Made by a program: the position numbers and the translations under genes. A stretch of DNA of 64,000 nucleotides from Anaeromicrobium sediminis (GTDB taxonomy: Bacteria; Bacillota; Clostridia; Peptostreptococcales; Thermotaleaceae): assembly GCF_002270055.1 (NCBI RefSeq), contig NZ_NIBG01000006.1, forward strand, positions 143,096-207,095, read 5' to 3'. Within the stretch, counting starts at the first letter, position 1. The number at the start of each line of letters is the position of its first letter. The notes under the pieces are model-generated. The model made no database searches and was not told where the DNA came from. It saw only the letters and a program-made list of their open reading frames with translations. Positions 16,324-35,437 of the stretch are shown piece by piece.

Positions 16324-17016
16324 TTAATCTTCTACTAAGGCTACGGCTCTAATAGGTGAACCTGAACCATCTCGAATCTTTAATGGAAGTCCTATATAAA
16401 GAAACCTTCTATTGACAACCTTATCTAGATTACAAAGATTTTCCGTGTTTGAAATATGGTATTCTCCACAGATTAAATGACCGGAAAAATCTAAATCATC
16501 AGGATGGTCAATTGCAGGTGCATCAACTCCTATATTAACGACTCCCATATCAGCTAGCCATTTTGCAGCCCCGTAGCTTAAACCTGTATATTCAGTCTGC
16601 CACTTATCAGTACCAAAATTTCGATCATGGTGACCCGTATAGAGTAGAACTATATCTCCCTTTAAAATTTCCTGTCCAGATTTTTTTAAAGCTTCTTCTA
16701 AATCCTGTGGCTCGATATATCTGCTTGCCGGTATATGAGATAAATCTATGCAGATTGCACTGCCCCAAAAATATTCTATAGGCATTTTATCTATGGTGGG
16801 GCCATTAGGATTATATTCCCATACTCCGTCACTATGGGTACCACCATGCTCACTAATAAGTAAATTTCTTGCAGAAAAACCTAATGTTTTACTTCCTGTT
16901 ACCTTCATATTTTCTTCATGGGTCATATTAACCATTATAAAGGTAGGTTGATGCATAGGGAAAACGGACATTCCTTGAAATATTTCCTGGGAAAGATCAA
17001 TTAAACTTAATCCCAT
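16324..17016 (-). CDS. Cyclase-family metal hydrolase (kynurenine formamidase / isatin hydrolase type); candidate 4-imidazolone hydrolase
   Basis: A 230-residue protein of the cyclase family (PF04199). The metal-binding H57-x-x-T-H61-x-D63 (HGGTHSD) is visible, with LLYTGHHD near 123 and NIGVDAPAIDHPDD near 161. Family members hydrolyse amides and small lactams; isatin hydrolase opens a five-membered cyclic amide. In the purine pathway the one ring-opening step without another candidate is 4-imidazolone to formiminoglycine, also a five-membered cyclic amide, so I propose that role (inference). The gene is divergent from the formimidoyltransferase that would use its product and shares a 237-base control region with it. 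AAGGAGGAG precedes the ATG. Confidence 0.8.
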   Translation of the reverse strand: MGLSLIDLSQEIFQGMSVFPMHQPTFIMVNMTHEENMKVTGSKTLGFSARNLLISEHGGTHSDGVWEYNPNGPTIDKMPIEYFWGSAICIDLSHIPASRYIEPQDLEEALKKSGQEILKGDIVLLYTGHHDRNFGTDKWQTEYTGLSYGAAKWLADMGVVNIGVDAPAIDHPDDLDFSGHLICGEYHISNTENLCNLDKVVNRRFLYIGLPLKIRDGSGSPIRAVALVED

Positions 17017-17253
17017 CTCTATTACTCCTCCTTATTAAAGTAAGTATATTTCTTAATTATATTTGATGTTTATATATAAAATTCCCTTATAAAAAATATA
17101 CAAAAATAGATGTAAAAAAATTCTGAAAATTAGCTGTTGTTCATAGAATTTACACAAAGGTTATTTAGCATATTTTATTGAATTTTGAATTAGATATTTA
17201 ATAGGGAAAAAAACAAGTAACAGCTGTGAATAGAAAAGGAGGAAATATATATT
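17017..17253. promoter_or_regulatory. Divergent control region of the purine-degradation operon
   Basis: An A/T-rich spacer between the - strand hydrolase and the + strand operon. It contains TAGAATTTACA at 17144-17154, identical to 12678-12688 before the permease. I cannot pick out a confident -35/-10 pair for either direction. Confidence 0.4.
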
Positions 17254-18159
17254 ATGGATGAAAGAAAGTACATCTTAGCAGTTCCAAACTTTAGTGAAGG
17301 AAGGAGAACAGAAGTAGTTGAAGCTATAGTTGATCAAGTTAAAAACATAGATGGGGTAAAACTTGTAAGCTATGAACCAGAACATGATTTCAATAGAACT
17401 GTAGTAACTTTAATAGGTGAACCTAAACCACTTAAGGGAGCACTTATTAATTTGGCAAGTAAAAGCTATGAACTGATTAATATGGAAGAACAATCTGGTA
17501 CCCATCCTAGAATAGGAGCTCAGGACACTATACCTATTTTCCCATTTAAGAACATTTCCATAGAAGAATGCAAAGACTTTATAGAAGACCTAGCTGTAGA
17601 ACTTTATGAAAAGTGTGAAGTACCATTATATTTCTCAGGGTTAAATGCAAGATGTGAGGAAAGAAAGGCTTTATCATTTATTAGAAAAGGACAATATGAA
17701 GGTTTAAAGGAAGTTGCACACACAGACGAAAGAAAACCTGATATGGGACCTGCTAAATTACATACAACTGCAGGAGCAACTATTCTAAGTGCTGACTTTG
17801 AAGGATTAACTGCATACAATGTTTTCTTAGATACGGAGAATGTGCAGATAGCTAAAAAGATAGCAAAGGCTGTAAGAGGTCCAAGTGGTGGATTCTCAAC
17901 AGTAAGAGCAGTAGGGATCAAATTCCCTGAAAGAGAAGGTGTAGTTGTATCAATGAATATGTTTGATTGTGGCAAGACACCTTTATATAGGACTTTCAAC
18001 TTTGTAAAACAAGAAGCAGTAAGATACGGTGTTGCAGTTACTGGCTCTGAGCTAGTTGGTCCAGTTAAATTAGATTATTTACTAAATTCTTTAGAGTATT
18101 TACTTGGTCTTGAAAACTTTACAAAGGAACAAATCTTAGAAACACACTTGATGGACTAA
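17254..18159 (+). CDS. Formimidoyltransferase (FtcD N-terminal type); candidate glycine formimidoyltransferase
   Basis: Transfers a formimino group to tetrahydrofolate. The 301-residue protein matches only the transferase half of FTCD: VPNFSEGRR at the start, SGTHPRIGAQDTIPI near 81-95 with H84 at the position of the catalytic His, and GPAKLHTTAGATILS near 165. The cyclodeaminase half is absent. Annotation by similarity would be glutamate formimidoyltransferase. In this locus the donor is more likely formiminoglycine (EC 2.1.2.4), the last intermediate of clostridial xanthine breakdown, giving glycine and formimino-THF. That substrate choice is inference. It is the first gene of the purine operon, with AAAGGAGG upstream. 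Confidence 0.85.
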   Translation: MDERKYILAVPNFSEGRRTEVVEAIVDQVKNIDGVKLVSYEPEHDFNRTVVTLIGEPKPLKGALINLASKSYELINMEEQSGTHPRIGAQDTIPIFPFKNISIEECKDFIEDLAVELYEKCEVPLYFSGLNARCEERKALSFIRKGQYEGLKEVAHTDERKPDMGPAKLHTTAGATILSADFEGLTAYNVFLDTENVQIAKKIAKAVRGPSGGFSTVRAVGIKFPEREGVVVSMNMFDCGKTPLYRTFNFVKQEAVRYGVAVTGSELVGPVKLDYLLNSLEYLLGLENFTKEQILETHLMD

Positions 18160-18294: not shown

Positions 18295-19710
18295 ATGAAT
18301 TACGATGTTATTGTAAAAAATGCACGCATACCACAGGGGAATGATACAGTTCTTACAAATATATTAGTGAAGGACGAAAAAATTGTAGGCTTTACATTAG
18401 ATTTAGATGGTATTCAAGGTAATAAGGTTATAGATGCAGAGGGACATCTTACTCTACCAGGATGCATAGATTCTCATACACATATAAATGACCCTGGATT
18501 TACCCATAGAGAAAACTTTTTAACTGGAACCTCTGCAGCAGCAAGTGGTGGAGTTACAACTATAGTTGATATGCCATGTTGCTCCGTACCATCAGTAAGA
18601 AGCGTAGAAAACTTAGAACACAAACTTAATGCTATAAAGAATAAGGCCATAGTTGATTATGGTATGTGGGGAGGAGTTACTGGCGAAGACGTTAGAAATG
18701 GATGGCTTCATAATGTTAAAGAACAAGCTGATTACGGTGTTTTAGCGTTTAAAGTTTATATGACTCCTTCAGTTCCAACATATCCAAGGGTTACTGATCC
18801 TGAAATGCTTGAAGCTTTCAAGGCTGTAGCAGAAACTGGGCTTCCAATAGGAATTCACGCTGAAAACTTTGCAATGTGCGATTTCTATGTTAAGAAGTTT
18901 GAAAAAGAAGGAAGAACTGATGGTCCTGCATGGGCTGAAGCGAGAATGACTTTAGCTGAAAAGGTTGCCATTGAGTTAGGTATTAGCTTTGCTGAAGAAG
19001 CAGGAGCTAGATTACATATAGTTCACATGAGTACTGGAGTCGGTGCAAAACTAGTTGGAGATGCAAAGAAAAGAGGATTAGATGTTACTGCTGAAACTTG
19101 CCCTCACTACTTAACTCTAAATTATAAAGATGCAATGACAGAATTCATGCAGTTTGCAAAAATTGCTCCTCCACTTAGAACTAAGTCAGATAATGAAGAA
19201 CATTGGAAGGCGCTACAAGATGGTAGAATCGACTTCGTAGCCACAGATCATGCTCCATATGAAATACCTACTGAGAAAGAAGCGGAAGGAATGCATATAT
19301 GGAATGCTTTTCCAGGAATTCCAGGAGTAGAGACTATGGTTCCAATGATAGTAAGTGAAGGATACAATAAGGGCAGATTGAGCTTGAGCAGATTAGTAGA
19401 GGTACTTTGCAGTAGTCCAGCAAAACACTATGGAATATATCCTAAGAAAGGTGCCATGTTCATTGGATCAGATGCCGACTTTACTATTATAGACTTGGAA
19501 AAAGAATGGACTATAGACAAGGACAAAATGTATACAATGGCTAAGTATACTCCTTTCCATGGCTATAAATTAAAGGGTAAGCCAGTTAAAACAGTAGTTA
19601 GAGGTAAATTAGTTTATGATGATGAATCTGGAATCGTTGGAGAAGAAGGATATGGAGAGTTCATAAGAAGACAAAATATTCAAAAGCTTGATAAGGCCAT
19701 TAAATACTAA
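18295..19710 (+). CDS. Allantoinase/dihydropyrimidinase-family cyclic amidohydrolase; candidate xanthine amidohydrolase
   Basis: A 471-residue binuclear metal amidohydrolase. Ligands can be seen in order: H61 and H63 (DSHTHIND), the carboxylated K153 (LAFKVYM), H188 (GIHAEN), H244 (IVHMS) and D318 (ATDHAPY). The family opens cyclic ureides by hydrolysing a ring amide. Xanthine's pyrimidine ring is a cyclic ureide, and its hydrolysis to 4-ureido-5-imidazolecarboxylate is the first committed step of the clostridial pathway. No other allantoin gene is present, so I favour that role over allantoinase (inference). It is followed 57 bases later by the isochorismatase-like gene. Confidence 0.85.
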   Translation: MNYDVIVKNARIPQGNDTVLTNILVKDEKIVGFTLDLDGIQGNKVIDAEGHLTLPGCIDSHTHINDPGFTHRENFLTGTSAAASGGVTTIVDMPCCSVPSVRSVENLEHKLNAIKNKAIVDYGMWGGVTGEDVRNGWLHNVKEQADYGVLAFKVYMTPSVPTYPRVTDPEMLEAFKAVAETGLPIGIHAENFAMCDFYVKKFEKEGRTDGPAWAEARMTLAEKVAIELGISFAEEAGARLHIVHMSTGVGAKLVGDAKKRGLDVTAETCPHYLTLNYKDAMTEFMQFAKIAPPLRTKSDNEEHWKALQDGRIDFVATDHAPYEIPTEKEAEGMHIWNAFPGIPGVETMVPMIVSEGYNKGRLSLSRLVEVLCSSPAKHYGIYPKKGAMFIGSDADFTIIDLEKEWTIDKDKMYTMAKYTPFHGYKLKGKPVKTVVRGKLVYDDESGIVGEEGYGEFIRRQNIQKLDKAIKY

Positions 19711-19767
19711 GTTACAGGTAAGTTAGATATTTATTGCTCAATAAAAATTAAATTTGGAGGGATTAAT

Positions 19768-20370
19768 ATGCCAAGACACGCCATAGTTGTAATAGATATG
19801 TTAAATGATTTTGTTGGAGAGAAGGCTCCACTGAGATGTCCGGGAGCTGATGATATTATACCTGATTTACAAAAATTATTTAAATGGGTTAGACAGAGAG
19901 AAAATGATGATATCCATCTAGTTCATATTCAAGAGGCTCATAGAAAGAATGATGCTGACTTTAGAGTTAGACCTGTTCACGCTGTTAAAGGTACATGGGG
20001 TTCTGACTTTATAGAGGAGCTTTACCCTGAGGGAGATGAGTATATAGTTCCTAAGAGAAGACATAGTGGATTTGCCCATACTGATCTTGACCTTTATTTG
20101 AGAGAAGAAAATATAGATACAGTAGTAGTTACAGGGGTTTGGACTAATGTGTGTGTAAGAAGTACTGCTTCTGATGCTTTATATAATGCTTATAAGGTTA
20201 TCACATTAAGTGATGGTTGTGCATCAAAAACTAAAGAAATGCATGAATATGGATTAAATGATTTAAGTATATTTACAAAGGTAATGAGTATTGATGAATA
20301 TATTGAATCATGGGAAAAGGGTCTTGATCCATGGATTGGTGGAGGAGACAAAGAAAACAAAGTTGAGTAA
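19768..20370 (+). CDS. Isochorismatase-family cysteine hydrolase; candidate 4-ureido-5-imidazolecarboxylate amidohydrolase
   Basis: A 200-residue cysteine hydrolase with a visible D10-K96-C129 triad (VVIDMLNDF, IVPKRRHSGF, TGVWTNVCVRSTA). Relatives include nicotinamidase, N-carbamoylsarcosine amidohydrolase and ureidoacrylate hydrolase, all of which cleave amide or ureido groups. In this operon the expected substrate is the ureido group of 4-ureido-5-imidazolecarboxylate, released as ammonia and CO2 (inference). GGAGGG precedes ATG 19768. The UbiX-like gene starts 15 bases after its stop. Confidence 0.87.
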   Translation: MPRHAIVVIDMLNDFVGEKAPLRCPGADDIIPDLQKLFKWVRQRENDDIHLVHIQEAHRKNDADFRVRPVHAVKGTWGSDFIEELYPEGDEYIVPKRRHSGFAHTDLDLYLREENIDTVVVTGVWTNVCVRSTASDALYNAYKVITLSDGCASKTKEMHEYGLNDLSIFTKVMSIDEYIESWEKGLDPWIGGGDKENKVE

Positions 20371-20384: not shown

Positions 20385-20936
20385 ATGAAGATAATAGTTG
20401 GGATGACAGGAGGAAGCTGCTCTTTATATGGAGTAGCCCTCCTTAAGGCTCTCGAACAGCTAGGTATCGAGACTCATTTAATTGTATCAAGGATGGGAGA
20501 GTATGTTACTAAGCATGAATGTGACATAGACATAAGTGAATTAAAGTCAATGGCAACCTATTTTCATGAAATTAATGACTTAGCAGCACCTGTTGCTAGT
20601 GGCTCCTTCAAAGCTGATGGAATGATAATAATACCTTGTTCCATGAATACCTTAGGAGCTATTGCGAGTGGCTTAAGTTTAAATTTGATTCATAGAGCAG
20701 CAGATGTAACTATTAAAGAAGGTAGAAAGCTGGTTATAGTACCTAGAGAAACACCTCTTAGTGTAATACATCTTGAAAATATGCTGAAGCTCGCTAGGAT
20801 AGGAGTGAAAATTGTCCCAGCGTCCCCAGGCTTTTACCATAACCCTCAAACAATAGGTGATTTAGTGAATATCATGGTGGGGAGAGTGTTAGATCAGTTA
20901 GGTATAGAAGCAAACCTTTTTGAAAGATGGAAGTAG
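20385..20936 (+). CDS. UbiX-family flavin prenyltransferase
   Basis: Makes prenylated FMN, the cofactor of UbiD-type decarboxylases. The 183-residue sequence is a close family match: GMTGGSCSLYG near 6, IIPCSMNTLGAIASGLS near 86, NLIHRAADVTIKEGRKLV near 105 and VPRETPLSVIHLENML near 124, with LFERWK at the end. It lies directly upstream of a UbiD-family gene, the usual partner arrangement. No EP-like extension is present, so it may act in the cytosol and supply the cofactor to an encapsulated UbiD (inference). Confidence 0.93.
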   Translation: MKIIVGMTGGSCSLYGVALLKALEQLGIETHLIVSRMGEYVTKHECDIDISELKSMATYFHEINDLAAPVASGSFKADGMIIIPCSMNTLGAIASGLSLNLIHRAADVTIKEGRKLVIVPRETPLSVIHLENMLKLARIGVKIVPASPGFYHNPQTIGDLVNIMVGRVLDQLGIEANLFERWK

Positions 20937-21107: not shown

Positions 21108-22463
21108 ATGGAAAGGCAAATGTTAAGAGCTGATTTAGAAAAATTAAGGAAAAATGAAAAACTTTTAGTATGTGACAAAGAAGTTGACCCCAAATATGAA
21201 TTGGGAGCTGTTCTTAAACACTTTAGCAATAAAAAACCAATATTATTTAACAATTTAAAGGGAAGTAAATTATCCATTATAGGAGGCATGTTTGGAGACC
21301 GACATATATTCTATGACATGCTAGGTACAAACCATGAAAAGCGAATTTTCAAGTTCATGGATACAATAGTCAATCCCCAAAGGACCAAACTACTTGATAA
21401 TGGTCCTATAAAAGAAAATATCATTACTAGAAATATAGATATATCAAATACTTTTCCAATACCAACATTCCATGAAAATGATTCGTCATCATTTATTACA
21501 GCAGGAATAGTAGTGATTAGAGATCCAGAAACTGGAAATCGATACACCTCTATTAGAAGGCTTCAGGTAAATGGTGGGGACAATCTCAGCATTTTAATTG
21601 CATCACCAATGTTCACAAATCAATTAAAGGAACTAAAAGGTAAGAAAAAAGACCTGGAGGTTGCAGTAATATTAGGTTATGATTACCCATTTCTTTTAGC
21701 ATCACAACTCAGTAGTGAACTTTATGGCGTGGATAAATATGAAGTAGATAGTGCTCTAAGGGGCGAGCCACTAGAACTAGTTAAATGCCATACAATCGAT
21801 TTAGAGGTTCCTGCCCATTGTGAGATAGTATTTGAAGGGGTTATACCCCATGACAGAGAGGTGCAAGAGGGTCCCTTTGGTGAGTTAATGGGATACTATG
21901 GAAAGGTAGCTAATCATCCTGTTATAGAGGTTAAAGCAGTTATGTTTAGAAATAATCCAATCTTTCAAGTTTCATTTCCTTGTAGGGAAGAGCATCTTTC
22001 AAATGGCTTGATAAGGGAAGTTGAACTGTATATGCATGTTAGGAAATTTGCCGACGTTAAGGATGTAAATGTGACCATCGGTGGTGGATGCAGATTCCAT
22101 GGAATTGTTTCAATCAACAAGAAGCAAGAGGGAGATGGCAAGGGTGTTATTTTAGGAGCACTTGGAAGCAATAAGGATTTAAAGCACGTGATTGTTGTGG
22201 ATGATGATATAGACATTTTTAACGGAGATGATATAGAGGGGGCTCTTGCAACAAGAGTTCAAGGATCAAGGGATGTAGTAATGATAAATGGAGCCCATGG
22301 TTCAGGGCTAGATCCTTCACATAATATGAGGGGGATTACTGATAAGATAGGGATTGATGCAACAAAGCCACTAGGAGAAAATGGAATGAAGTTTAATAAG
22401 GCAATAATTCCTGGATATGAAAAGATAGATATAGAAAAATATTTCCCCAATTTAAAGGATTAA
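21108..22463 (+). CDS. UbiD-family decarboxylase; candidate 4-amino-5-imidazolecarboxylate decarboxylase
   Basis: A 451-residue prFMN-dependent decarboxylase. The prFMN/metal region NRYTSIRRLQ (144-153, with R150) and the acidic pair E254/E259 in DREVQEGPFGELMGYYG match the R-E-E catalytic set of UbiD enzymes. The family decarboxylates aromatic and heteroaromatic acids, and the pathway requires removal of the carboxyl of 4-amino-5-imidazolecarboxylate to give 4-aminoimidazole. Position between UbiX and the shell genes supports this (inference). The preceding 171 bases carry a repeated leader element. The next gene, a shell protein, starts 12 bases after the stop. Confidence 0.9.
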   Translation: MERQMLRADLEKLRKNEKLLVCDKEVDPKYELGAVLKHFSNKKPILFNNLKGSKLSIIGGMFGDRHIFYDMLGTNHEKRIFKFMDTIVNPQRTKLLDNGPIKENIITRNIDISNTFPIPTFHENDSSSFITAGIVVIRDPETGNRYTSIRRLQVNGGDNLSILIASPMFTNQLKELKGKKKDLEVAVILGYDYPFLLASQLSSELYGVDKYEVDSALRGEPLELVKCHTIDLEVPAHCEIVFEGVIPHDREVQEGPFGELMGYYGKVANHPVIEVKAVMFRNNPIFQVSFPCREEHLSNGLIREVELYMHVRKFADVKDVNVTIGGGCRFHGIVSINKKQEGDGKGVILGALGSNKDLKHVIVVDDDIDIFNGDDIEGALATRVQGSRDVVMINGAHGSGLDPSHNMRGITDKIGIDATKPLGENGMKFNKAIIPGYEKIDIEKYFPNLKD

Positions 22464-22475: not shown

Positions 22476-22745
22476 ATGAGGCAAGCAATTGGATTCTTCG
22501 AGATTAGGAGCAAGGTAGCCGCAATACAGGCTGCAGATACTATGCTCAAGACCGCCGATGTAAGGATAAAGGATTTTAATTTAGTAGGTTCCGGAGTGAT
22601 TTCAGTTATTATTGAAGGGGATGTAGCCGCAGTAAGAGCTGCAATTGAGAATGCAAAGGCTACAGCTGGAAATATGGCTGAGGTAATATCCATTAATGTA
22701 ATACCTAGGCCTAATGAAGAAGTTGACAAATTATTTGGCGAGTAA
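22476..22745 (+). CDS. BMC-H hexameric shell protein 1
   Basis: An 89-residue single BMC domain (PF00936) that would form hexagonal shell tiles. It begins MRQAIGFFEIRSKVAAIQAAD, has the LVGSGVISVIIEGDVAAVRAAIE core and ends with the conserved VIPRPNEEVDKLF. The N-terminal IGFFEIRSK is a variant of the usual ALGLVETKG, which suggests a divergent pore role. It is packed between ubiD and a small unknown gene. Confidence 0.93.
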   Translation: MRQAIGFFEIRSKVAAIQAADTMLKTADVRIKDFNLVGSGVISVIIEGDVAAVRAAIENAKATAGNMAEVISINVIPRPNEEVDKLFGE

Positions 22746-22757: not shown

Positions 22758-23120
22758 ATGTCAAATGAATTAACTAGAGTAATTATGAAAAATATTGTTG
22801 ATAGGTGTTCAGATAATAAAAGAAATGATACATCTAAAATACATATTGGCAATAGAGACGTGAATATGCTAAGGAATATTATTCATAAGGAAAATAGTAT
22901 AAGTGTAAAAGTGGAAGCTAATACAAAACTTGAAGGCAGAGATTCAAGAAAGCGTATTACATTAGATGAGCTCATAAATAAAAGTGTAGGAGATAATAAA
23001 TCCTCAAAAGGCTCAGAAAATGAAAAAATTAAAGATTCCTATACAAAAGGAATTAATAAAGTAAGTTTAGAAGACATAGTTCCAAAGGTTTCTTTAACTT
23101 CCATTGGGAAGAAAAGATAG
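22758..23120 (+). CDS. Small low-complexity protein of the microcompartment locus
   Basis: A 120-residue basic, polar protein that I do not recognise. The first 17 residues (ELTRVIMKNIVDRC within them) could form a short amphipathic helix like an encapsulation peptide. The rest looks disordered, rich in Ser, Lys, Asn and Asp. Two related short motifs occur, RITLDELINKSV near 66 and KVSLEDIVPKVS near 101. Spaced helical motifs on a flexible chain, between two shell genes, suggest a scaffold that links cargo to shell (inference). ATG 22758 follows ATGGGGTGG. Confidence 0.75.
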   Translation: MSNELTRVIMKNIVDRCSDNKRNDTSKIHIGNRDVNMLRNIIHKENSISVKVEANTKLEGRDSRKRITLDELINKSVGDNKSSKGSENEKIKDSYTKGINKVSLEDIVPKVSLTSIGKKR

Positions 23121-23142: not shown

Positions 23143-23502
23143 ATGGGTATGGCACTAGGACTTATAGAGACCGTAGGACTATCGGCAGCAGCGGCAGCCT
23201 TGGATGCAGCAGCAGATACTGCTGATGTAAAGCTTGCTGGATATGAAAAGGTTATAGGTGTAGGTAAATCTGTAAGTGTAACCATAAATCTAGTTGGTGA
23301 AGTAGCATCAGTACAGGCTGCAGTTGAATATGGAGTTAAGGCTGCTGAAAAGGTGGGCACAGTCTTATCATCTAAAGTAATACCAAGACCCCACGAAGAT
23401 GTGGATAAACTAATAGACATGTTTAACAAAAATATCAAAAAAGATAAAAAGAAAGAAGTTGAGAAAAAACAAACTGATGAAAGAAATGAAAATGAAGAAT
23501 AA
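23143..23502 (+). CDS. BMC-H hexameric shell protein 2, with charged tail
   Basis: A 119-residue protein. Residues 3-90 are a BMC domain (ALGLIETVGLSAAAAALDAA at the start, SKVIPRPHEDVDKLI at the end), followed by about 28 mostly charged residues of Lys, Glu, Asp and Asn. An unusually Ala-rich first helix replaces the common GL(V)GAIEAAD pattern. The tail would project from the tile and could bind cargo or a partner tile (inference). Confidence 0.92.
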   Translation: MGMALGLIETVGLSAAAAALDAAADTADVKLAGYEKVIGVGKSVSVTINLVGEVASVQAAVEYGVKAAEKVGTVLSSKVIPRPHEDVDKLIDMFNKNIKKDKKKEVEKKQTDERNENEE

Positions 23503-23545: not shown

Positions 23546-23821
23546 ATGAGTCAAGCATTAGGTTTAGTTGAAACTAAAGGTTTAGTAGGAGCTATAGAGG
23601 CAGCAGATGCCATGGTTAAAGCAGCCAATGTAACAATAGTAAGTTATGAGAAGATAGGTTTTGGACTAGTAACAGTTATGGTAAGAGGAGATGTAGGGGC
23701 GGTTAAAGCAGCTACAGATGCAGGAGCAGAAGCGGCTAGATCAGTAGGAGAACTTCATTCTATACACGTAATTCCACGTCCACACGCTGAAGTTGAAAGA
23801 GTTATATTAAATAAAGAATAG
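23546..23821 (+). CDS. BMC-H hexameric shell protein 3 (canonical)
   Basis: A 91-residue canonical BMC-H protein: [20 protein letters not shown] at the start, then [21 protein letters not shown] and [17 protein letters not shown]. It is the closest of the three paralogues to the bulk hexamers PduA/EutM and so the likely main facet tile (inference). AAGGAGG precedes ATG 23546. Confidence 0.95.
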
Positions 23822-27167: not shown

Positions 27168-28514
27168 TTGTCAAGTTTCACAAAGAATGATGGATTTTTT
27201 GAAAGAAAATTTAAGCTTTCGGAGAATAATACAAATGTAAAAACAGAAATCATGGCAGGTATTACTACCTTTATGACCATGGCATATATCCTCATAGTCA
27301 ACCCATTAACATTATCTGCAACGGGAATGGATTTTGGAGCAGTATTTACAGCTACAGCTGTATCAGCAATATTTGCAACCTTAATAATGGCATTATATGC
27401 TAACCTACCTTTTGCATTGGCTCCAGGTATGGGTCTCAATGCTTTCTTTGCTTTTAGTGTTGTTTTAGGCATGGGTTATTCTTGGCAGTTCGCATTAACA
27501 GCAGTATTTATAGAAGGTATTATCTTCATTATCCTTACCTTCTTTAATGTTCGTGAAGCAATAATAAATAGTATACCATTAAATCTAAAAAGAGCTGTTT
27601 CAGTTGGTATTGGATTATTTATTGCATTAATAGGATTAGTAAATGCAGGCATTATAGTATCGGGTAAATTTCATGTAGGTGATGGAAAACTTGATGGACT
27701 TATAGTGAAGTTAGGTGATGTGACTTCTGGTGCACCATTGTTAGGTTTAATTGGATTACTAATTACAGGTGTATTACTTGCAAGAGGAGTTAAAGGAGCT
27801 TTATTAATTGGTATATTACTAAGCACAATTATTGGTATACCTATGGGAGTTACTAACGTAGAAGGTTTTAAGCTCATAAGTGCGCCTCCATCACTTACGC
27901 CAATTCTGTTTAAGCTTGATTTCTCAAACGTGTTTTCTATGGATATGCTAATTGTATTATTTACCTTCTTATTTGTAGATATGTTTGATACGGTAGGAAC
28001 GTTGGTTGGAGTAGCAACTAAGGCAGATATGCTCGATGAAAAGGGCACTTTGCCTAGAGCTAAGCAAGCTCTTTTTGCTGATGCTGTAGGAACAACATTA
28101 GGAGCCCTTTTAGGAACTAGTACAGTTACTACATATGTTGAAAGTGCTTCAGGTGTTGCAGAAGGTGGAAGAACAGGGTTAACAGCTTTATCAACAGCTG
28201 GCATGTTCGCCTTAGCTTTACTATTCTCTCCAGTATTTATTATGATACCAGGAGCAGCAACTGCTCCAGCATTAATTCTTGTTGGTTTGTTCATGATGAG
28301 TCCTATTCTTAAGATAGACTTTGATGATTTCACTGAGGCAATTCCAGCATTCTTAGCTATAATAATGATGCCCCTTGCATACAGTATTGCTGAAGGTATA
28401 GTATTCGGTATGGTTAGTTATGTGTTACTAAAAACATTAACAGGAAAATCTAAAGAAGTATCTCCATTGATGTATATAATTAGTATACTTTTCGTAATTA
28501 AATTCTTTATTTAA
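27168..28514 (+). CDS. AzgA/PbuG-type purine permease
   Basis: A 448-residue membrane protein of the AzgA branch (guanine, hypoxanthine, adenine uptake). Signatures are ITTFMTMAYILIVNP near residue 30, FALAPGMGLNAFFAF near 84, and LFVDMFDTVGTLVGVATKADM near 270. I place the start at TTG 27168, because AAAGGAGGG lies 7 bases upstream. ATG 27144 is far from the AAAGGAGGT at about 27109 and would add eight residues. The position between two deaminase genes suggests that it imports the bases they act on. It complements the NCS2 xanthine carrier at 12930. Confidence 0.88.
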   Translation: MSSFTKNDGFFERKFKLSENNTNVKTEIMAGITTFMTMAYILIVNPLTLSATGMDFGAVFTATAVSAIFATLIMALYANLPFALAPGMGLNAFFAFSVVLGMGYSWQFALTAVFIEGIIFIILTFFNVREAIINSIPLNLKRAVSVGIGLFIALIGLVNAGIIVSGKFHVGDGKLDGLIVKLGDVTSGAPLLGLIGLLITGVLLARGVKGALLIGILLSTIIGIPMGVTNVEGFKLISAPPSLTPILFKLDFSNVFSMDMLIVLFTFLFVDMFDTVGTLVGVATKADMLDEKGTLPRAKQALFADAVGTTLGALLGTSTVTTYVESASGVAEGGRTGLTALSTAGMFALALLFSPVFIMIPGAATAPALILVGLFMMSPILKIDFDDFTEAIPAFLAIIMMPLAYSIAEGIVFGMVSYVLLKTLTGKSKEVSPLMYIISILFVIKFFI

Positions 28515-28700: not shown

Positions 28701-30032
28701 ATGTCAACGGTGAAGATTTCTAAAGGAACAATCGTAACTATGAATAAGGGACGAGAAATTTTTAAAGGTGATATCTTTATAAAGGATGATAGGATAGATG
28801 AAATTGCCCCATCTATTGAGAGAAATGCAGATATAGAGATAGATGCAGAGGGGAAAGTTATAATTCCTGGACTGATACAGACCCATATCCATCTGACTCA
28901 AACATTATTCAAGGGGATGGCAGATGACTTAGAGCTTCTTGATTGGCTAAGAAAAAGAATATGGCCACTAGAAGGAAACCATACTGAGGAAACAAATTAT
29001 ATTTCTGCAAAGCTTGGATTAGCAGAACTTATAAAAAGTGGTACCACATCAATAATAGATATGGAGACAGTAAATCATACTGAAGCTACCCTAAACTCCA
29101 TAGATGAAAGCGGATTTAGAGCAATAGTAGGTAAATGTATGATGGATTACGGGACAGGTGTTCCAAATAGTCTAATGGAGAATACTGAGGAATCCATAAG
29201 GGAGAGTGTTAGGATATTAAAGAAATGGCACAAAAGTAGAAATGGAAGAATTCAGTATGCATTTGCCCCAAGATTTGTTGTTTCGTGTACAGAGGAATTA
29301 CTGGTTAAGGTTAGGGATTTATCAAAAGAATACGGAGTTATGGTACATACCCATGCGTCAGAGAATAGAGGAGAGATAGAATTAGTTGAAAAGGATAGGG
29401 GTATGCGAAACATTAAATATTTGCATAAGCTTGGAATAACAGGAGAAGATCTTATATTAGCCCATTGTGTATGGCTTGATGATGAGGAAATGAGAATATT
29501 GGCGGATACGGGAACGAAGGTGGCCCACTGTCCAAATTCTAATTTGAAGTTGGCCTCAGGTATTGCAAAAATTCCAGAGTTACTTAACTTAGGAGCTAAT
29601 GTATCAATAGGGATTGACGGTGCACCTTGTAACAACAATTTGGATATATTTAGAGAAATGAGGAGTGCAGCACTAATTCAAAAGGCAAGACTTCTTAGTC
29701 CTACTGTAATGCCAGCGGAGAAAGTATTTGAGTTAGCCACATTAAATGGAGCTAAAGCAATGGGGATGGAAGATGACCTTGGAAGTTTAGAAGTAGGAAA
29801 AAAAGCTGATATTGTAATAATAGATCTTAACAAGATCAGTAATGCACCTAATGCAGGAGCTAATATCATATCACAATTAGTATACTCCGCATCGGCTTCT
29901 GATGTTGAAACAACAATTATAGATGGAAAAATTGTTATGAAGGATAGAGAACTTCTAACCTTAAATGAAAAATCAATTATGAGTGATGCAAACAGACTTA
30001 TTAAAGGACAGATGGATAAGCTTAAAATATGA
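28701..30032 (+). CDS. ATZ/TRZ-family amidohydrolase, probable guanine deaminase
   Basis: A 443-residue metal-dependent hydrolase with H62/H64 (QTHIHLTQTLFKG), a VHTHASEN segment near 215, ILAHCVWLDDEE near 253 and GIDGAPCNNN near 312 carrying the catalytic Asp. Family members deaminate guanine, 8-oxoguanine, 5'-methylthioadenosine or s-triazines, and sequence alone does not settle which. Between a guanine/hypoxanthine-type permease and xanthine dehydrogenase, guanine to xanthine is the natural reading (inference). A structured leader precedes it. GGGGGATAT lies before ATG 28701. Confidence 0.8.
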   Translation: MSTVKISKGTIVTMNKGREIFKGDIFIKDDRIDEIAPSIERNADIEIDAEGKVIIPGLIQTHIHLTQTLFKGMADDLELLDWLRKRIWPLEGNHTEETNYISAKLGLAELIKSGTTSIIDMETVNHTEATLNSIDESGFRAIVGKCMMDYGTGVPNSLMENTEESIRESVRILKKWHKSRNGRIQYAFAPRFVVSCTEELLVKVRDLSKEYGVMVHTHASENRGEIELVEKDRGMRNIKYLHKLGITGEDLILAHCVWLDDEEMRILADTGTKVAHCPNSNLKLASGIAKIPELLNLGANVSIGIDGAPCNNNLDIFREMRSAALIQKARLLSPTVMPAEKVFELATLNGAKAMGMEDDLGSLEVGKKADIVIIDLNKISNAPNAGANIISQLVYSASASDVETTIIDGKIVMKDRELLTLNEKSIMSDANRLIKGQMDKLKI

Positions 30033-30075
30033 GTTCATAGGGATTTTAAGAAACATAAAGTGGGGGCGATATTTT

Positions 30076-30951
30076 GTGGCAATTGAAAAGATTCATAAGG
30101 TATCAAATATAGGTGATGCTATAACTCTATTGGAAAAGTATAAAGAAAAGGCAGAACTTTTAGCAGGTGGTACAGATCTATTAGTTCACCTTAGAGAAGA
30201 AAAAAACAGAGGAAGCATAATTATAGATATTTCTAATATTAGGGAAATGAAAAAAATAGAGATTAAAGAAAAGGAAATAGTATTAGGGGCTTTAACTACT
30301 TTTTCAGAGATAGTCCAAAATGATTATATAAAAGAGAATGTTACAGGCCTTTGGAAGGCGGCAAAGTCAGTGGGATCACCTCAAATAAGAAATATGGGCA
30401 CCATTGGAGGGAATATTGGCAATGCTTCACCAGCAGCAGATACTGTTCCGCCATTATTAGCATTAGATGCTACTTTGAGGGTGATGAGTAATGATGGAGA
30501 AAGAAGTATAAAACTTTGTGAGTTCTATGGAGATAAAGGGGAAACTGCATTAAAACCCAATGAAATGATAATTAGCGTAGGATTCTCTCATCTTAAAAAT
30601 AGGAGGGAACATATTGGGTTTGAAAAACTTGGAGTAAGAAATGCTTTGGCCATATCAAAAATCAGCTGTGCTGTTTATTTAGAAGTTCAAGATAAATCAA
30701 TAAATAATATTAGAATTGCTTCGGGAGCATTAGGAGGCTATCCTATTAGGGAATATATTGTTGAAGATTTTATAAAGGGAAAAGTTTTAAGTGATGAATT
30801 TATAGAAGTTGCAGCAATGAAATATTCAGAAGCTTTAGAAAAAAGGCTCTCAGGCAGGAACTCCTGGCCATATAAAAAAGAAGCATCAAAGGGCGTTTTT
30901 AAGAAAGCAATATATAGTTTAGTTAATAGTTATGATCCTAATAACTCTTAA
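30076..30951 (+). CDS. Xanthine dehydrogenase, FAD-binding subunit
   Basis: A 291-residue medium subunit of a molybdenum hydroxylase that passes electrons from the Fe-S centres to NAD+ or ferredoxin. FAD-binding motifs AELLAGGTDLLVHLREE near 33 and the RNMGTIGGNIGNASPAADTVPPL stretch near 107-129 are clear. The start is GTG 30076 with GTGGGGGCG upstream. The longer frame from 29983 overlaps the previous gene and its first 31 residues have no family character. It is first of the four-gene hydroxylase cluster FAD, 2Fe-2S, Mo-a, Mo-b. Hypoxanthine to xanthine is the expected reaction given the neighbours. Confidence 0.88.
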   Translation: MAIEKIHKVSNIGDAITLLEKYKEKAELLAGGTDLLVHLREEKNRGSIIIDISNIREMKKIEIKEKEIVLGALTTFSEIVQNDYIKENVTGLWKAAKSVGSPQIRNMGTIGGNIGNASPAADTVPPLLALDATLRVMSNDGERSIKLCEFYGDKGETALKPNEMIISVGFSHLKNRREHIGFEKLGVRNALAISKISCAVYLEVQDKSINNIRIASGALGGYPIREYIVEDFIKGKVLSDEFIEVAAMKYSEALEKRLSGRNSWPYKKEASKGVFKKAIYSLVNSYDPNNS

Positions 30952-30972
30952 CTAAATAATGGAGGTGATTCC

Positions 30973-31461
30973 ATGATTAATATAGAGGTAAATATTAACG
31001 GTGAGGACTATAGGCTTGAAGTGGAGGACGATTTAAGACTGATAGATTTACTGAGGGATAAATTACATCTAACAGGAACAAAAGAAGGTTGTGGTGAGGG
31101 TGAATGTGGAGCTTGTACGGTAATACTAGATGGGAAAAGTGTTAACTCATGCTTACTTTTAGTAGCTCAGGTACATGGTAAAAGGATTACAACTATAGAA
31201 GGACTAGGAGATGAAAACAATTTACACCCTATACAAAGGGCATTTCTAGAGCAAGGTGCTGTACAGTGTGGGTATTGTATACCAGGAATGGTTTTATCGG
31301 CAAAGGCTTTTCTTGATACAAATAGCACACCTAAGAGGGAGGAAATAAGAGAGGCTATTTCAGGCAATTTATGTAGATGTACGGGATATGAAAAAATTAT
31401 AGATTCCATTGAAAGGGCTTCTGAGTTCATGCAAGAGGAAGGAAGTGAAGCCCGTGAGTGA
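30973..31461 (+). CDS. Xanthine dehydrogenase, 2Fe-2S subunit
   Basis: A 162-residue small subunit with two [2Fe-2S] sites. The plant-type cluster ligands are in GCGEGECGACTVILDG (near 40-55) with a further Cys in NSCLLL, and the second cluster ligands are in QCGYCIPGM (near 99) and GNLCRCTGYEKI (near 135). GGAGGTGAT precedes ATG 30973. Its 3' end overlaps the start of the next subunit by 8 bases. Confidence 0.93.
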   Translation: MINIEVNINGEDYRLEVEDDLRLIDLLRDKLHLTGTKEGCGEGECGACTVILDGKSVNSCLLLVAQVHGKRITTIEGLGDENNLHPIQRAFLEQGAVQCGYCIPGMVLSAKAFLDTNSTPKREEIREAISGNLCRCTGYEKIIDSIERASEFMQEEGSEARE

Positions 31462-32719
31462 TTTTAGGAATATAGGAAAGAATCTAGTCAGAGTAGATGG
31501 AAAACAAAAGATACTTGGAAAAGCAACATATCCAGGAGATTTATATATGGAGGATATGCTTTATGGAGTTACAGTTAGATCAACGGAGCCCCATGCATAT
31601 TTTTCATTAGACCTGAGTGAGGCACAAAATTTACATGGAGTAGTAAAGATATTGACCCATGAAGATATTACAGGAGAGAATCATCATGGAGTATATTTTA
31701 AAGACCATGAGGTATTTTGTAAGAATAAAGTGAGAAGAATCGGTGATCCTCTGGCCTTTATAATTGCCGAAAGTAAAAATATAGCCATCGAAGCAAAAAA
31801 ACGTATAAAAGTAGAGTATGAGAAGCTACCTACTGTATTTGACCCTAGGGAGGCTATGAAAGGAAATTCTCCTAAAATACATGGGGATAGTAATGTGATT
31901 TATCACTATAAATGTAGAAAGGGAGATATAGAGGATGGGTTTGAGAAATGTGATGTAATAGTAGAAAATGAATACAAAACCTCTATGGTAGACCATGTAT
32001 TTTTGCAAATTGAAAGCGGTTTAGCTTATTTAGAGGATGATGAAACCGTTGTAATATGTGCAGCTACTCAATATCCTCATTTTGATCAGATTGAAATAGC
32101 TGAAGCCTTAGGATTGCCTAAAGAAAAGATAAGGATAATAAACCCCGCTGTAGGTGGAGCCTTTGGTGGGCGAGAAGATATAACAATGCAGATACATATT
32201 GCTTTAGGAACCCTTCTTACCAAAAGACCAATTAAAGTTGACTATTCTAGAGAAGAATCTTTTTATGCTCATTCTAAAAGACATCCACTTTACATGAAAT
32301 TTAAAACTGGTGCTGATAACAAAGGAAAATTGGTAGCTATGGAGGCTGAAATAGTTGGCGATACAGGGGCATATGCTTCGTGGGCAGTTAATGTACTTAG
32401 AAAAGCGGGAGTTCATGCAACAGGCCCCTATGAAATTCCTAACGTTAAAATTGATAGCTATGCTGTTTATACAAATAATCCCTTTTGCGGAGCAATGAGG
32501 GGCTTTGGAGCTACACAGACTCCCGTAGCCTGTGAGCAGCAAATGGATATATTAGCAGAAAAACTAGGTATAAGTCCTATAGAAATGAGACTTAAGAATT
32601 GTTTTAGAAATAATAGTACAACTGCAACTGGACAGGTACTTATCGAGAGTGTTCCCCTTGAAAGATGTATAGAAACTGTTGCAAAACAAATGTCATTTAA
32701 CGAAAGCGAGATGGGGTAA
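31454..32719 (+). CDS. Xanthine dehydrogenase, molybdopterin subunit, N-terminal half
   Basis: About 421 residues that cover the first part of the large molybdenum subunit: DGKQKILGKATYPGDL near 14, the GGAFGGREDITMQ molybdopterin loop near 233 and the AMRGFGATQ loop near 352. It stops at 32719, and the rest of the subunit continues in another frame from 32721. Clostridial nicotinate dehydrogenase has just such a split into large and medium Mo subunits, so this may be natural rather than a frameshift. The GTG 31454 start follows GGAAGGAAG and overlaps the 2Fe-2S gene. Confidence 0.85.
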   Translation: MSDFRNIGKNLVRVDGKQKILGKATYPGDLYMEDMLYGVTVRSTEPHAYFSLDLSEAQNLHGVVKILTHEDITGENHHGVYFKDHEVFCKNKVRRIGDPLAFIIAESKNIAIEAKKRIKVEYEKLPTVFDPREAMKGNSPKIHGDSNVIYHYKCRKGDIEDGFEKCDVIVENEYKTSMVDHVFLQIESGLAYLEDDETVVICAATQYPHFDQIEIAEALGLPKEKIRIINPAVGGAFGGREDITMQIHIALGTLLTKRPIKVDYSREESFYAHSKRHPLYMKFKTGADNKGKLVAMEAEIVGDTGAYASWAVNVLRKAGVHATGPYEIPNVKIDSYAVYTNNPFCGAMRGFGATQTPVACEQQMDILAEKLGISPIEMRLKNCFRNNSTTATGQVLIESVPLERCIETVAKQMSFNESEMG

Positions 32720-32720
32720 T

Positions 32721-33707
32721 ATGAAGAAAAGGGGTAGAGGAATTGCAGCATCATTTTATGGCACAGGCTATGGCAACGGATTCCCAGATGTTTCAGTAGC
32801 TATAATTGGATTAGAAGATGATGGAAGAATATCTATTTCTGTTGGAGCTTCTGAAGTAGGGCAAGGAGTCAAAACGATTTTGTGTCAAATAGGAGCTGAG
32901 GTTTTAAATCTTAATATTAATGATATTATGCTTATTAATGAAGACAGTAGTAAAACTCCGGATTCTGGTACTGCTGCTGCTAGCAGACAAACCTACAATA
33001 CGGGAAATGCTGTGAAATTAGGAATGGAATCTTTTAAGAGTAAACTTTTTGAAATAGTTAAGAACGAGTTAAAGCTAAATTCACCTATAGGTTTAGAGGT
33101 TGAGGATAATGTTGTTTTTTTGAAAATGTTTCCTGAAAAGAGAATAAGCTTTAAGAAAATAGCTGAGAATCTTAAAAATAAGGGTAAAAAACTAAAAGTA
33201 ACAGAGCGTTTTGTTGCTCAAACAACTGAAATGGATGCTGAATCGGGACAGGGGGCGCCATATTGGCCCTATACTTTTAATTGTTACGGTGTGGAGGTAG
33301 AAGTTGATACAGAAACTGGAAAGGTTGATATTATCAAGGCAGTATGTGCTCATGATGTGGGAAAGGCAATAAATCCCTCCATGGTAGAAGGGCAGATAGA
33401 TGGGGGATTTGCCATGGGAGTGAGCTATGCTTTATTTGAAGATTTAGGTCTTAAGAATGGAAGGATTAAAAATAATAAGTTTTCAAGATATATTATACCT
33501 ACAAGCCTTGATATACCAGAGATAGAGAAAATTATTATTGAAGATCCCGAATCAACTGCCCCCTATGGGGCAAAAGGAATTGGAGAACCCGTTATCATAC
33601 CTGTAGCTCCAGCAATCTTAAATGGAATATATGATGCAGTTGGAGTTAGAATAAGAGATTTACCCGCTACTCCTGAGAAAATTTTAAAGGCTCTTAAAGA
33701 AAGGTAG
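32721..33707 (+). CDS. Xanthine dehydrogenase, molybdopterin subunit, C-terminal half
   Basis: About 328 residues with the second half of the Mo subunit: GASEVGQGVKTIL near 42, DSGTAAASRQTYNTGNA near 82, CAHDVGKAINPSMVEGQIDGG near 214 and the active-site Glu in YGAKGIGEP near 286. ATG 32721 lies one base after the upstream stop, which would allow re-initiation. In the frame of this gene the sequence stays open for 42 bases into the upstream gene, so a one-base change could fuse the two. The lengths resemble the L/M pair of nicotinate dehydrogenase. Confidence 0.82.
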   Translation: MKKRGRGIAASFYGTGYGNGFPDVSVAIIGLEDDGRISISVGASEVGQGVKTILCQIGAEVLNLNINDIMLINEDSSKTPDSGTAAASRQTYNTGNAVKLGMESFKSKLFEIVKNELKLNSPIGLEVEDNVVFLKMFPEKRISFKKIAENLKNKGKKLKVTERFVAQTTEMDAESGQGAPYWPYTFNCYGVEVEVDTETGKVDIIKAVCAHDVGKAINPSMVEGQIDGGFAMGVSYALFEDLGLKNGRIKNNKFSRYIIPTSLDIPEIEKIIIEDPESTAPYGAKGIGEPVIIPVAPAILNGIYDAVGVRIRDLPATPEKILKALKER

Positions 33708-33709
33708 TG

Positions 33710-35437
33710 ATGAATTTGACAGATGACATAAAAAAGAGAATAGATATTGCAGCTGGAAGGAGAGCGGCGGATTTAGTCTTAAAAAATGCGAAAATTGTGG
33801 ATGTGTTTTCTGAAAGAATAATTGAAGGTGATATAGCAATAAGTAATGAACGAATAGCAGCAATAGGAGAGTATTCTGGAAAAGAGGAAGTGGACCTAAA
33901 TGGTAAATATGTGGCTCCTGGCCTTATAGATGGACACGTTCATATTGAATCATCAATGGTAACACCTGGTCAATTTGCAAAAGCAATAGTTCCCCATGGA
34001 ACCACAAGCATAATAGCTGATCCCCATGAAATTGCTAATGTGTGTGGGTTAGATGGAATAGAGTATATTTTGGAGGAGAGCAAGGATATTCCTTTGGATG
34101 TATTTGTCATGCTTCCTTCATGTGTGCCATCTACTGCATTTGAAAATTCAGGTGCAAAGCTTTCGGCTAAAGAACTTGAGAAAATGATTCACATAGATAG
34201 AGTACTAGGTTTAGGGGAATTAATGGATTACCCTGCTATAATAGGCGGAAATGAAGAGGTTTTGCAAAAGATAAAAATAGCTGGAAATAAAATGAAGGAC
34301 GGACATGGCCCAGGTATTGATGGAAAAGATCTAAATGCTTATGTAACCTCAGGAATAAAAACAGAGCATGAGTGTACTACTATAGAAGAAATGGAAAATA
34401 GAATTAGATTAGGTATGTATGTCTTAGTCAGGGAAGGTTCTGCCGCAAGAAATCTAGAGGTATTAACAAAAGGAATAACTAAGGCTAACCTTAGAAGAAT
34501 ACTTTTTTGTACAGATGATAGGCATCCAGAAGATATATTAAATGACGGACATATTGATAATAACATTAGGTTAGCTATAAAGAATGGAATTGATCCAATT
34601 TCTGCAATTAAGGTTGCATCATTAAATGCAGCTGAATGTTATAGATTATATGATAGAGGAGCCGTTGCTCCAGGCTATATGGCAGACTTAATAGTTATAG
34701 ATGACATTAAAAAATTTAACATAGAAAAAGTTTTAAAAAATGGTAAGATAGTTGCTAAAAATGGTAAATCATTATTCAAGGTTAAATCTAAGAAGGATTC
34801 AAAAATAATGAATACTGTAAATCTAAAGCAGATAGATAAGGATATGTTAAAAATAAAACTTAGTAGTGGCATTGTCAATGTAATGAGATTGATTCCCCAC
34901 AGCCTAGTAACTCAGAAGGTTGTTAGAAAGGTAGATACAGAAGATAGTTACTTTAAATACAACCACATGCTTGATATTTTAAAGCTAGTAGTTGTTGAAA
35001 GACATAAGGGTACGGGTAATATTGGTCTTGGCCTTGTTGAGAACTTTAATCTTAAAGATGGCGCTATAGCTTCAACTGTTGCCCATGATTCACATAATCT
35101 TATTGTGGTTGGTGATAACGATGAGGATATTCTTTTGGCAATTAAAGAACTAGGAGAAATAGGTGGTGGAATTACAATTTGTTCCAAAGGAAAGGTCTTA
35201 AAATCATTACCTCTTCCTATAGGAGGCTTAATATCTGATAAAGCTTTGGACGAAGTAAGTCTCCAACTTAAGGAAATGTTAAAAATAGCCTATGGTATGG
35301 GTGTAAATAAAGATATTGATCCATTTATGACATTGGCATTTCTTGCACTTCCTGTAATTCCAGAGCTAAAGCTTACGGATGTGGGACTATTTGATGTGAC
35401 GAAATTTGATTTTATAGATATAAGTGTGAAGAATTAA
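33710..35437 (+). CDS. ade: Adenine deaminase (canonical)
   Basis: Deaminates adenine to hypoxanthine, which the xanthine dehydrogenase upstream would oxidise. The 575-residue protein has the standard motifs DGHVHIESSMVTPGQFA near 77, DPHEIANVCG near 105, PSCVPSTAFENSGA near 134, KDGHGPGIDGKDLNAY, REGSAARNLEVL and CTDDRHPED. ATG 33710 is preferred over GTG 33707, which overlaps the previous stop, because AGAAAGG is better spaced. It is the last gene of the purine region. Compared with the copy at 25201 it retains all canonical substrate-loop sequences. Confidence 0.92.
   Translation: MNLTDDIKKRIDIAAGRRAADLVLKNAKIVDVFSERIIEGDIAISNERIAAIGEYSGKEEVDLNGKYVAPGLIDGHVHIESSMVTPGQFAKAIVPHGTTSIIADPHEIANVCGLDGIEYILEESKDIPLDVFVMLPSCVPSTAFENSGAKLSAKELEKMIHIDRVLGLGELMDYPAIIGGNEEVLQKIKIAGNKMKDGHGPGIDGKDLNAYVTSGIKTEHECTTIEEMENRIRLGMYVLVREGSAARNLEVLTKGITKANLRRILFCTDDRHPEDILNDGHIDNNIRLAIKNGIDPISAIKVASLNAAECYRLYDRGAVAPGYMADLIVIDDIKKFNIEKVLKNGKIVAKNGKSLFKVKSKKDSKIMNTVNLKQIDKDMLKIKLSSGIVNVMRLIPHSLVTQKVVRKVDTEDSYFKYNHMLDILKLVVVERHKGTGNIGLGLVENFNLKDGAIASTVAHDSHNLIVVGDNDEDILLAIKELGEIGGGITICSKGKVLKSLPLPIGGLISDKALDEVSLQLKEMLKIAYGMGVNKDIDPFMTLAFLALPVIPELKLTDVGLFDVTKFDFIDISVKN

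Follow-up and report, generated by a model that had tools for sequence, protein, structure and literature searches.

A BUF1/XAU-type microcompartment gene cluster in Anaeromicrobium sediminis with a predicted anaerobic xanthinase pathway

The window analysed here, a stretch of 64,000 nucleotides from Anaeromicrobium sediminis (RefSeq assembly GCF_002270055.1, contig NZ_NIBG01000006.1, positions 143,096 to 207,095; contig C6 of an assembly of 55 contigs and 4.71 Mb), carries at approximately 12.9 to 35.4 kb a gene series in which the shell genes of a bacterial microcompartment (BMC) stand among the genes of a predicted purine degradation pathway. The cluster very probably belongs to the BUF1/XAU type and encodes the anaerobic xanthinase pathway, with a shell that would enclose at least the UbiD-type decarboxylase and Ade2, a paralogue of adenine deaminase. 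The locus type is already described, and the window is a further member of it. What singles out these two enzymes is their position. Of 59 related loci, 58 are uncut on the upstream side of the shell block and 58 on the downstream side; among recognised genes, UbiD directly precedes the block in all of the former and Ade2 directly follows it in all of the latter.

In the proposed pathway, all of whose substrates are predicted, purines would enter through two permeases and be converted to xanthine by deaminases and xanthine dehydrogenase (XDH). The enzyme encoded at 18295 would open the six-membered xanthine ring and that at 19768 would cleave the ureido group; UbiD, with prenylated flavin mononucleotide (prFMN) from UbiX, would then decarboxylate the product to 4-aminoimidazole, which Ade2 would deaminate to 4-imidazolone. 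The cyclase-family enzyme may open 4-imidazolone to formiminoglycine, and the FtcD-type enzyme is predicted to pass the formimino group to tetrahydrofolate (THF), so that glycine remains. The window holds a candidate gene for each step down to 5-formimino-THF, and FTCD_C, the cyclodeaminase family, is found twice elsewhere in the genome. The genes are as follows, with their profile matches.

12915..14264, plus strand: PbuX-type xanthine permease (NCBIfam TIGR03173, 506 bits, cut-off 414)
14543..16201, plus strand: PucR/CdaR-like regulator, predicted for the cluster (NCBIfam AdeR/CdaR far below cut-off; recognised in 38 of the 59 loci)
16324..17016, minus strand: cyclase-family hydrolase, predicted to open the 4-imidazolone ring (PF04199, 120 bits)
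17254..18159, plus strand: FtcD-type formiminotransferase, predicted substrate formiminoglycine (PF07837, FTCD_N; PF02971, FTCD)
18295..19710, plus strand: hydantoinase/allantoinase-like amidohydrolase, predicted xanthinase (PF01979, Amidohydro_1; nearest NCBIfam models allantoinase/hydantoinase)
19768..20370, plus strand: isochorismatase-family hydrolase, predicted ureido-group cleavage (PF00857)
20385..20936, plus strand: UbiX-type flavin prenyltransferase, predicted prFMN source for UbiD (PF02441; TIGR00421, 237 bits)
21108..22463, plus strand: UbiD-type decarboxylase, predicted 4-aminoimidazole producer (PF01977, PF20695, PF20696)
22476..22745, plus strand: BMC-H shell protein 1 (PF00936, 79.8 bits)
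22758..23120, plus strand: protein of 120 amino acids (aa), predicted core-shell linker (no Pfam or NCBIfam match)
23143..23502, plus strand: BMC-H shell protein 2, extended at the C-terminus by a charged tail (PF00936, 68.3 bits)
23546..23821, plus strand: BMC-H shell protein 3, BMC-H3 (PF00936, 103.5 bits)
23924..24706, plus strand: protein with a flavoprotein domain and a tail resembling PduM/TIGR02536, predicted role in assembly (PF02441, 46 bits)
24836..25123, plus strand: BMC-P shell vertex protein (PF03319, EutN_CcmL, 108.8 bits)
25201..27012 (frame from 25192), plus strand: adenine deaminase paralogue Ade2, predicted 4-aminoimidazole deaminase (PF13382 and PF01979)
27144..28514, plus strand: purine permease, Xan_ur_permease (PF00860, 139.8 bits)
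28701..30032, plus strand: amidohydrolase-family deaminase, candidate for purine feed-in (NCBIfam 5'-deoxyadenosine deaminase)
29983..30951, plus strand: XDH FAD subunit (PF00941, PF03450; XdhB model 241 bits, below cut-off)
30973..31461, plus strand: XDH 2Fe-2S subunit (PF01799, PF00111)
31409..32719, plus strand: XDH molybdopterin subunit, first half (PF02738, PF01315)
32679..33707, plus strand: XDH molybdopterin subunit, second half (PF20256)
33707..35437, plus strand: canonical adenine deaminase (TIGR01178, 650.9 bits, cut-off 472.5)

Family calls follow the cut-offs of Pfam and NCBIfam profiles, against which 20 chosen open reading frames (ORFs) of 16324..35437 were scanned. An initial annotation, made from the letters of this DNA, had named genes of these families at these positions, and its calls matched above the Pfam cut-offs: PF00936 is found three times and PF03319 once at the proposed BMC-H (22476, 23143, 23546) and BMC-P (24836) genes, both permeases are present (Xan_ur_permease at 27144 and the PbuX type upstream), and so are the XDH subunits (29983-33707) and the canonical adenine deaminase (33707) that were thought to feed the pathway. 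Two shell-block genes, 22758-23120 and 23924-24706, were absent from that annotation.

Shell block, likely cargo and putative linkers

Relatives of the cluster were gathered with two baits. The best 80 of 98 relatives' loci from a search with a xanthinase alignment were kept, 63 of which have shell genes in the stretch, the other 17 lacking a shell gene there and many of these being truncated by contig ends. Four further loci without BMC-H2 or BMC-P were dropped, leaving the 59 loci with both in the stretch, in which neighbours were counted among recognised genes and intervening other ORFs were disregarded. These 59 loci contain the isochorismatase in 59 cases, UbiX, UbiD and Ade2 in 58 each, the cyclase in 53 and FtcD in 36. 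The second bait, BMC-H3, was run against 391 genomes, and a score gap (149 vs 138 bits) marks the compartment type: the locus is present in all 12 other genomes scoring at least 149 bits, two of them with a contig edge upstream, and in none of three genomes checked just below the gap. Ade2 follows the shell in all 12, and UbiD precedes it in the 10 that are uncut upstream. The two samples are not independent, because at least five genomes are shared (loci L149, L150, L154, L155 and L156 duplicate L055, L024, L063, L074 and L022). Since 63 of 80 xanthinase-found loci and 12 of 12 shell-bait genomes carry both parts, the association is not a matter of chance. Records named outside Firmicutes carry the cluster with shell and Ade2 joined, namely L076 (Brenneria sp.), L080 (a Rhodospirillales metagenome-assembled genome, MAG) and L063 (Calditrichales), the naming being taken as recorded.

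Genome-wide, PF00936 matches three open frames, the shortest of 89 aa and the longest of 121 aa, and with frames of such length no tandem-BMC protein was found in the genome. Because UbiD and Ade2 flank the shell, the gene order suggests that both enzymes lie inside it, and we infer 4-aminoimidazole, which UbiD would produce and Ade2 consume, to be the confined intermediate. The isochorismatase bears a DPWxGGGD tail in 48 of the 63 shell loci, in 4 of 9 loci whose stretch lacks a shell and in 0 of 3 Thermosyntropha copies, a mixed pattern in which the tail is a possible cargo mark.

Alternatively, the shell might serve the slow first step of the pathway, with xanthine concentrated around the xanthinase and the confinement of 4-aminoimidazole only secondary. 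The turnover of xanthinase is quoted as 0.1 per second in the available text of PMC12507026, a rate at which crowding might help, and in 56 of the 59 loci the isochorismatase behind the xanthinase runs straight on into UbiX and the shell genes. However, the direct neighbours of the shell in the uncut loci are UbiD and Ade2, not the xanthinase, and Ade2 still adjoins the shell in L040 of Paenibacillus, L076 and L080, where the xanthinase pair is inverted or relocated without running on into UbiX. We therefore regard this purpose as rather unlikely, and the confinement of 4-aminoimidazole between UbiD and Ade2 as the preferred reading.

The two shell-block genes at 22758 and 23924 may link the enzyme core to the shell. 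The slot of 22758, between the first BMC-H and BMC-H2, was scored for a same-strand ORF of at least 50 aa in 59 loci having both genes, L076 excluded; it holds an ORF of 71-162 aa in 53, one of more than 300 aa in five and none in one; for L030 the count picked up a longer neighbouring ORF in place of the homologue, which has 83 aa. The 22758 protein itself was recognised by phmmer in 7 of the 59 loci, and its database matches come to 14 proteins, including itself. Small slot proteins are Lys/Asn-rich, with an N-terminal pattern near MANPLARVIMNNI, the motif EE..L..II.K in the middle, and TLDEL as a further motif. AlphaFold2 models 22758 as helices 4-18, 32-44 and 69-80 on linkers, with no fold (pTM 0.19, mean pLDDT 66.9); the free N-terminal helix 4-18 is followed by a linker, as in the PduB-type signal. 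The slot protein has two BMC domains (tandem-BMC) in L032 and L033. That of L033 matches the EtuB and PduB structures, and its N-terminus agrees with two PduB proteins at 8 of 17 residues each; among 683 unrelated comparisons, made with the Ilyobacter PduB, the highest count was 7. A Pfam search gave no match for the long slot proteins of L070 and L071 (both Bacillus) and L040.

In the Pdu system, the N-terminal signals of PduB and PduM connect the core with the shell, and signals of this type share 25% identity or less, according to the available text of PMC12108088. In its position and shape, 22758 resembles a PduB-type signal freed from its shell domain. The protein encoded at 23924, whose gene occurs in 53 of the 59 loci, matches the models of TIGR02536 and PduM at its C-terminus with scores under the cut-offs, and looks like the PduM counterpart. 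Two comparisons bring no support for such a signal in 22758: its N-terminus has no more than 4 of 17 residues identical with PduB, the null being 2-6, and the amphipathicity of the slot N-termini, with a mean hydrophobic-moment z of 0.76, does not exceed that of the control N-termini of isochorismatase, UbiD and cyclase (0.96-1.19). Tentatively, and with somewhat less than even confidence, we propose that a trimer-free shell of BMC-H and BMC-P traps 4-aminoimidazole on its way from UbiD to Ade2, and that 22758 is a stand-alone disordered linker tying the core to the shell, with a signal helix that Carboxydothermus-type loci would keep joined to a tandem-BMC protein of PduB type and most clostridial loci would encode as a small protein of its own.

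Assignment of the enzymes to the pathway steps

The initial annotation had put forward the pathway and the six step assignments used here, and both are supported by the enzyme families, the gene order, the way the genes are split in Thermosyntropha, the isatin-hydrolase relatives of the cyclase and a separate FtcD for histidine. The amidohydrolase at 18295 has 91 relatives in PDB, the best being L-hydantoinase. The protein encoded at 19768 scores 392 bits with PDB 3hb7 over 199 of 200 residues, so close that a structure of the ureidohydrolase-step enzyme seems to exist, deposited merely as 'isochorismatase hydrolase'; RutB, biuret hydrolase and N-carbamoylsarcosine amidase are further solved relatives. 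Isatin hydrolases occur among the PDB relatives of the cyclase at 16324. Glu67 is present in 62 of 62 aligned XAU-type cyclases, including that of the window, in place of the His of the kynurenine formamidase motif, so the metal site of the cyclase probably differs.

A version of the pathway genes without a shell is that of Thermosyntropha lipolytica. For 16 of the 17 shell-less loci (L039 excluded), BMC domains were sought genome-wide in the 15 genomes concerned: they occur somewhere in 10 and are absent from five, two of which, at 1.0 and 1.6 Mb, are small and maybe incomplete. The five BMC-free genomes, each with a xanthinase match, include two of Thermosyntropha, namely T. lipolytica (G002) and a MAG (G003), and T. 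lipolytica alone among the five has an Ade2-like match. There, the xanthinase, isochorismatase and UbiD genes lie together (L037), a second xanthinase-isochorismatase pair lies apart (L048), and an Ade2 of 60% identity stands with a cyclase running off the contig end (L106). A glycine riboswitch (RF00504, L106:2488-2655, minus strand, 55.4 bits, gathering score 32), followed by a second aptamer-like repeat, precedes this Ade2-cyclase pair, and glycine control of the pair fits its place in the lower half of the pathway. A second Ade2-cyclase copy (L111/L162) is 99.95% identical over 2,054 bases and has different upstream DNA. In the window, an Rfam scan found no family. The gene content of T. 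lipolytica suggests that the pathway chemistry can run without a shell, with the qualification that UbiX and FtcD of T. lipolytica lay outside the search and that its assembly is maybe incomplete. T. lipolytica, in which a shell gene was not found, is a natural control that makes the purpose of the shell directly testable.

The two ring openings have been assigned the other way round. In a 2019 prediction, the cyclase acts on the six-membered xanthine ring and 4-imidazolone falls to the hydantoinase-like enzyme, with Amet_4587 named for the six-membered and Amet_4584 for the five-membered ring (available text of PMC6620236); deduced from gene order, Amet_4587 should be the cyclase and Amet_4584 the hydantoinase-like enzyme. 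The arrangement of the genes argues against this order of steps. In T. lipolytica the hydantoinase-like gene is grouped with isochorismatase and UbiD, and the cyclase with Ade2, one copy of which stands behind the glycine riboswitch. The isochorismatase follows the xanthinase in 59 of 59 loci, directed toward the shell in 57 and on the opposite strand in L040 and L076. Two loci of Bacillus, L070 and L071, have the cyclase after Ade2, and their gene order equals the predicted reaction order (xanthinase, ureidohydrolase, UbiX/UbiD, shell, Ade2, cyclase). The reason given in 2019 for excluding the cyclase fails, because the cyclase family includes the isatin hydrolases, which open a five-membered lactam. 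This evidence favours the hydantoinase-like enzyme as the probable xanthinase and the cyclase as the probable imidazolone opener, and we consider the 2019 assignment very unlikely.

Regarding the last step, urocanase, FtcD and FTCD_C of the histidine side lie within 5 kb on contig C8, a second FtcD-FTCD_C pair is on C44, and the FtcD of the window is 42% identical to the C8 FtcD near urocanase. As C8 has its own FtcD, with FTCD_C and urocanase, histidine degradation has no need of the FtcD of the window, and the idea that it is required there was rejected. The genome also has three genes of the GRDB family (glycine, sarcosine or betaine reductase). A distant deaminase lies upstream in 12 of the 23 FtcD-less loci (for example L014:6024-7307 and L053:2602-3885) and in one FtcD locus. 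As a formiminoglycine deiminase it was rejected, its N-terminal stretch reading like what we take to be the motif of canonical guanine deaminase.

Several observations weigh against the reading of the cluster as a xanthinase pathway partly enclosed by a shell. Curated models alone name other substrates, because 18295 exceeds the cut-offs of TIGR03178 allantoinase (369 vs 357.85 bits) and TIGR00857 dihydroorotase (328 vs 279), Ade2 that of the adenine deaminase model (487 vs 472.5 bits) and FtcD that of TIGR02024 glutamate formimidoyltransferase (304 vs 221 bits). FtcD is not in the stretch in 23 of the 59 loci, which were themselves gathered via the xanthinase bait, and the second Ade2-cyclase copy of T. 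lipolytica has no riboswitch match upstream. Encapsulation is read from gene adjacency, an indirect sign; comparison of enzyme termini between shell and shell-less loci gave no clear shell-specific extension, and the DPWxGGGD tail is missing from 15 of the 63 shell loci. The cyclase gene runs opposite to the shell block in 47 of 52 listed positions, so that, of the earlier suggestion that the shell holds both 4-aminoimidazole and imidazolone, the former part is retained as probable and the latter is weaker.

What points to xanthine is the combination and order of the enzymes, not single family models. That the cluster instead degrades another cyclic ureide (allantoin, hydantoin or pyrimidine) is very unlikely, since, although 18295 exceeds the TIGR03178 and TIGR00857 cut-offs and public records label its relatives allantoinase or dihydroorotase, this would leave UbiD/UbiX, the Ade paralogue, XDH and adenine deaminase of the same series unexplained, and a xanthinase gene cluster has been identified in Clostridia and Bacilli, as quoted in the available text of PMC12507026.

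Feed-in genes and surroundings of the cluster

The gene at 28701 had been described as guanine-deaminase-like: its identity as a deaminase held, and the specific model did not, the 5'-deoxyadenosine deaminase model scoring 706 bits (cut-off 522) and that of guanine deaminase 258 (cut-off 375). The XDH molybdopterin subunit is encoded by two overlapping ORFs (31409-32719 and 32679-33707). This split looks natural because the same split recurs in 7 of the 10 shell-bait loci having the gene, the other three containing a single ORF of 743-763 aa.

Just past the locus lies a sigma-54 activator (35492-36862, minus strand) whose gene looks interrupted, because its domains are spread over two ORFs, one with PAS and Sigma54 (35861-36862) and one with the AAA lid and helix-turn-helix (35492-35845). 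The region after the locus (37105-43788) contains BCCT transporters at 37105 and 42160 and, at 38777, an 838-aa protein that looks by eye like a doubled CoA-transferase. Farther on, a sigma-54 activator, 2-oxoacid:ferredoxin oxidoreductase subunits, phosphate acetyl/butyryltransferase, an acetate-kinase-family gene and an aminotransferase are consecutive at 54249-61942, in what looks like an amino-acid fermentation cluster. Upstream of the locus, histidine biosynthesis genes occupy 2501-9961 (histidyl-tRNA-synthetase-like, HisG, HisD, aminotransferase, HisB, glutamine amidotransferase and members of two His_biosynth families).

Comparison with known systems

The chemistry predicted here and its enzyme set are those of the xanthinase pathway of purinolytic clostridia (Rabinowitz 1956). 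The abstract of Tong et al. 2023 reportedly describes four hydrolases from different families and a prFMN-dependent decarboxylase. That study is credited with identifying the xanthinase gene cluster in the available text of PMC12507026 and PMC12990295, and the correspondence of its genes to those of the window is made through these citing papers. Earlier, the genome paper of C. acidurici had not found the pathway genes, and its available text does not use the word microcompartment (PMC3519856).

The compartment itself has a longer record, given here from the available text of the papers. Ravcheev 2019, citing Axen 2014, proposed a BMC of unassigned function for anaerobic xanthine utilization, Xau (PMC6620236); the 2021 survey equated Xau with BUF1 (PMC8156839), a 2021 catalogue listed BUF1 in Maledivibacter halophilus (PMC8217296), and a 2024 review lists the type as XAU (PMC11346464). 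A 2023 paper calls the compartment type functionally uncharacterized (PMC10470539), and no later experiments on the compartment or its cargo were among the literature matches listed. Novelty of the association between pathway and shell was therefore rejected (PMC6620236, PMC8156839, PMC11346464), in line with the caveat in the initial annotation that BMC surveys may list the locus type. The xanthinase of M. halophilus (L001) is 92% identical to that of the window.

Like the BUF1/XAU loci as published, the window combines shell genes with ring-opening hydrolases, a formimidoyltransferase, amidohydrolases, a decarboxylase and XDH, and the same substrate is proposed for both; both have BMC-H and BMC-P and are without an aldehyde dehydrogenase. 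They differ in the ring-opening assignments, which in 2019 were swapped relative to the present analysis. The available BUF1/XAU text, locus-diagram supplements aside, does not mention the 120-aa gene, the position of the shell between UbiD and Ade2 or the shell-less split.

In contrast to the aldehyde metabolosomes (EUT/PDU/GRM), with their aldehyde and alcohol dehydrogenases, phosphotransacylase (PTAC) and signature enzyme, the 20 scanned ORFs include none of these, nor PduL or a radical enzyme, which bears out the earlier view that this is not an aldehyde metabolosome. From Pdu, the helix-plus-linker protein of the shell block (22758) and the protein with a PduM-like tail (23924) recall PduB and PduM, respectively; PduB has tandem BMC domains, whereas 22758 has no shell domain in Pfam. 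For the ARO compartment, likewise, none of the usual aldehydes is proposed as substrate, and since its shell is described as very simple (available text of PMC10470539), a reduced shell is not unique to XAU; unlike the window, ARO is actinobacterial and linked to a 2-aminophenol meta-cleavage pathway. Ravcheev et al. saw in XAU a third functional paradigm, on the ground that its enzymes differ from those of the metabolosomes (available text of PMC6620236). To that paradigm the present comparison adds an argument against one published gene-to-step assignment and a short list of candidate cargo and linkers, namely UbiD, Ade2, 22758 and 23924, with 4-aminoimidazole as the molecule probably confined.

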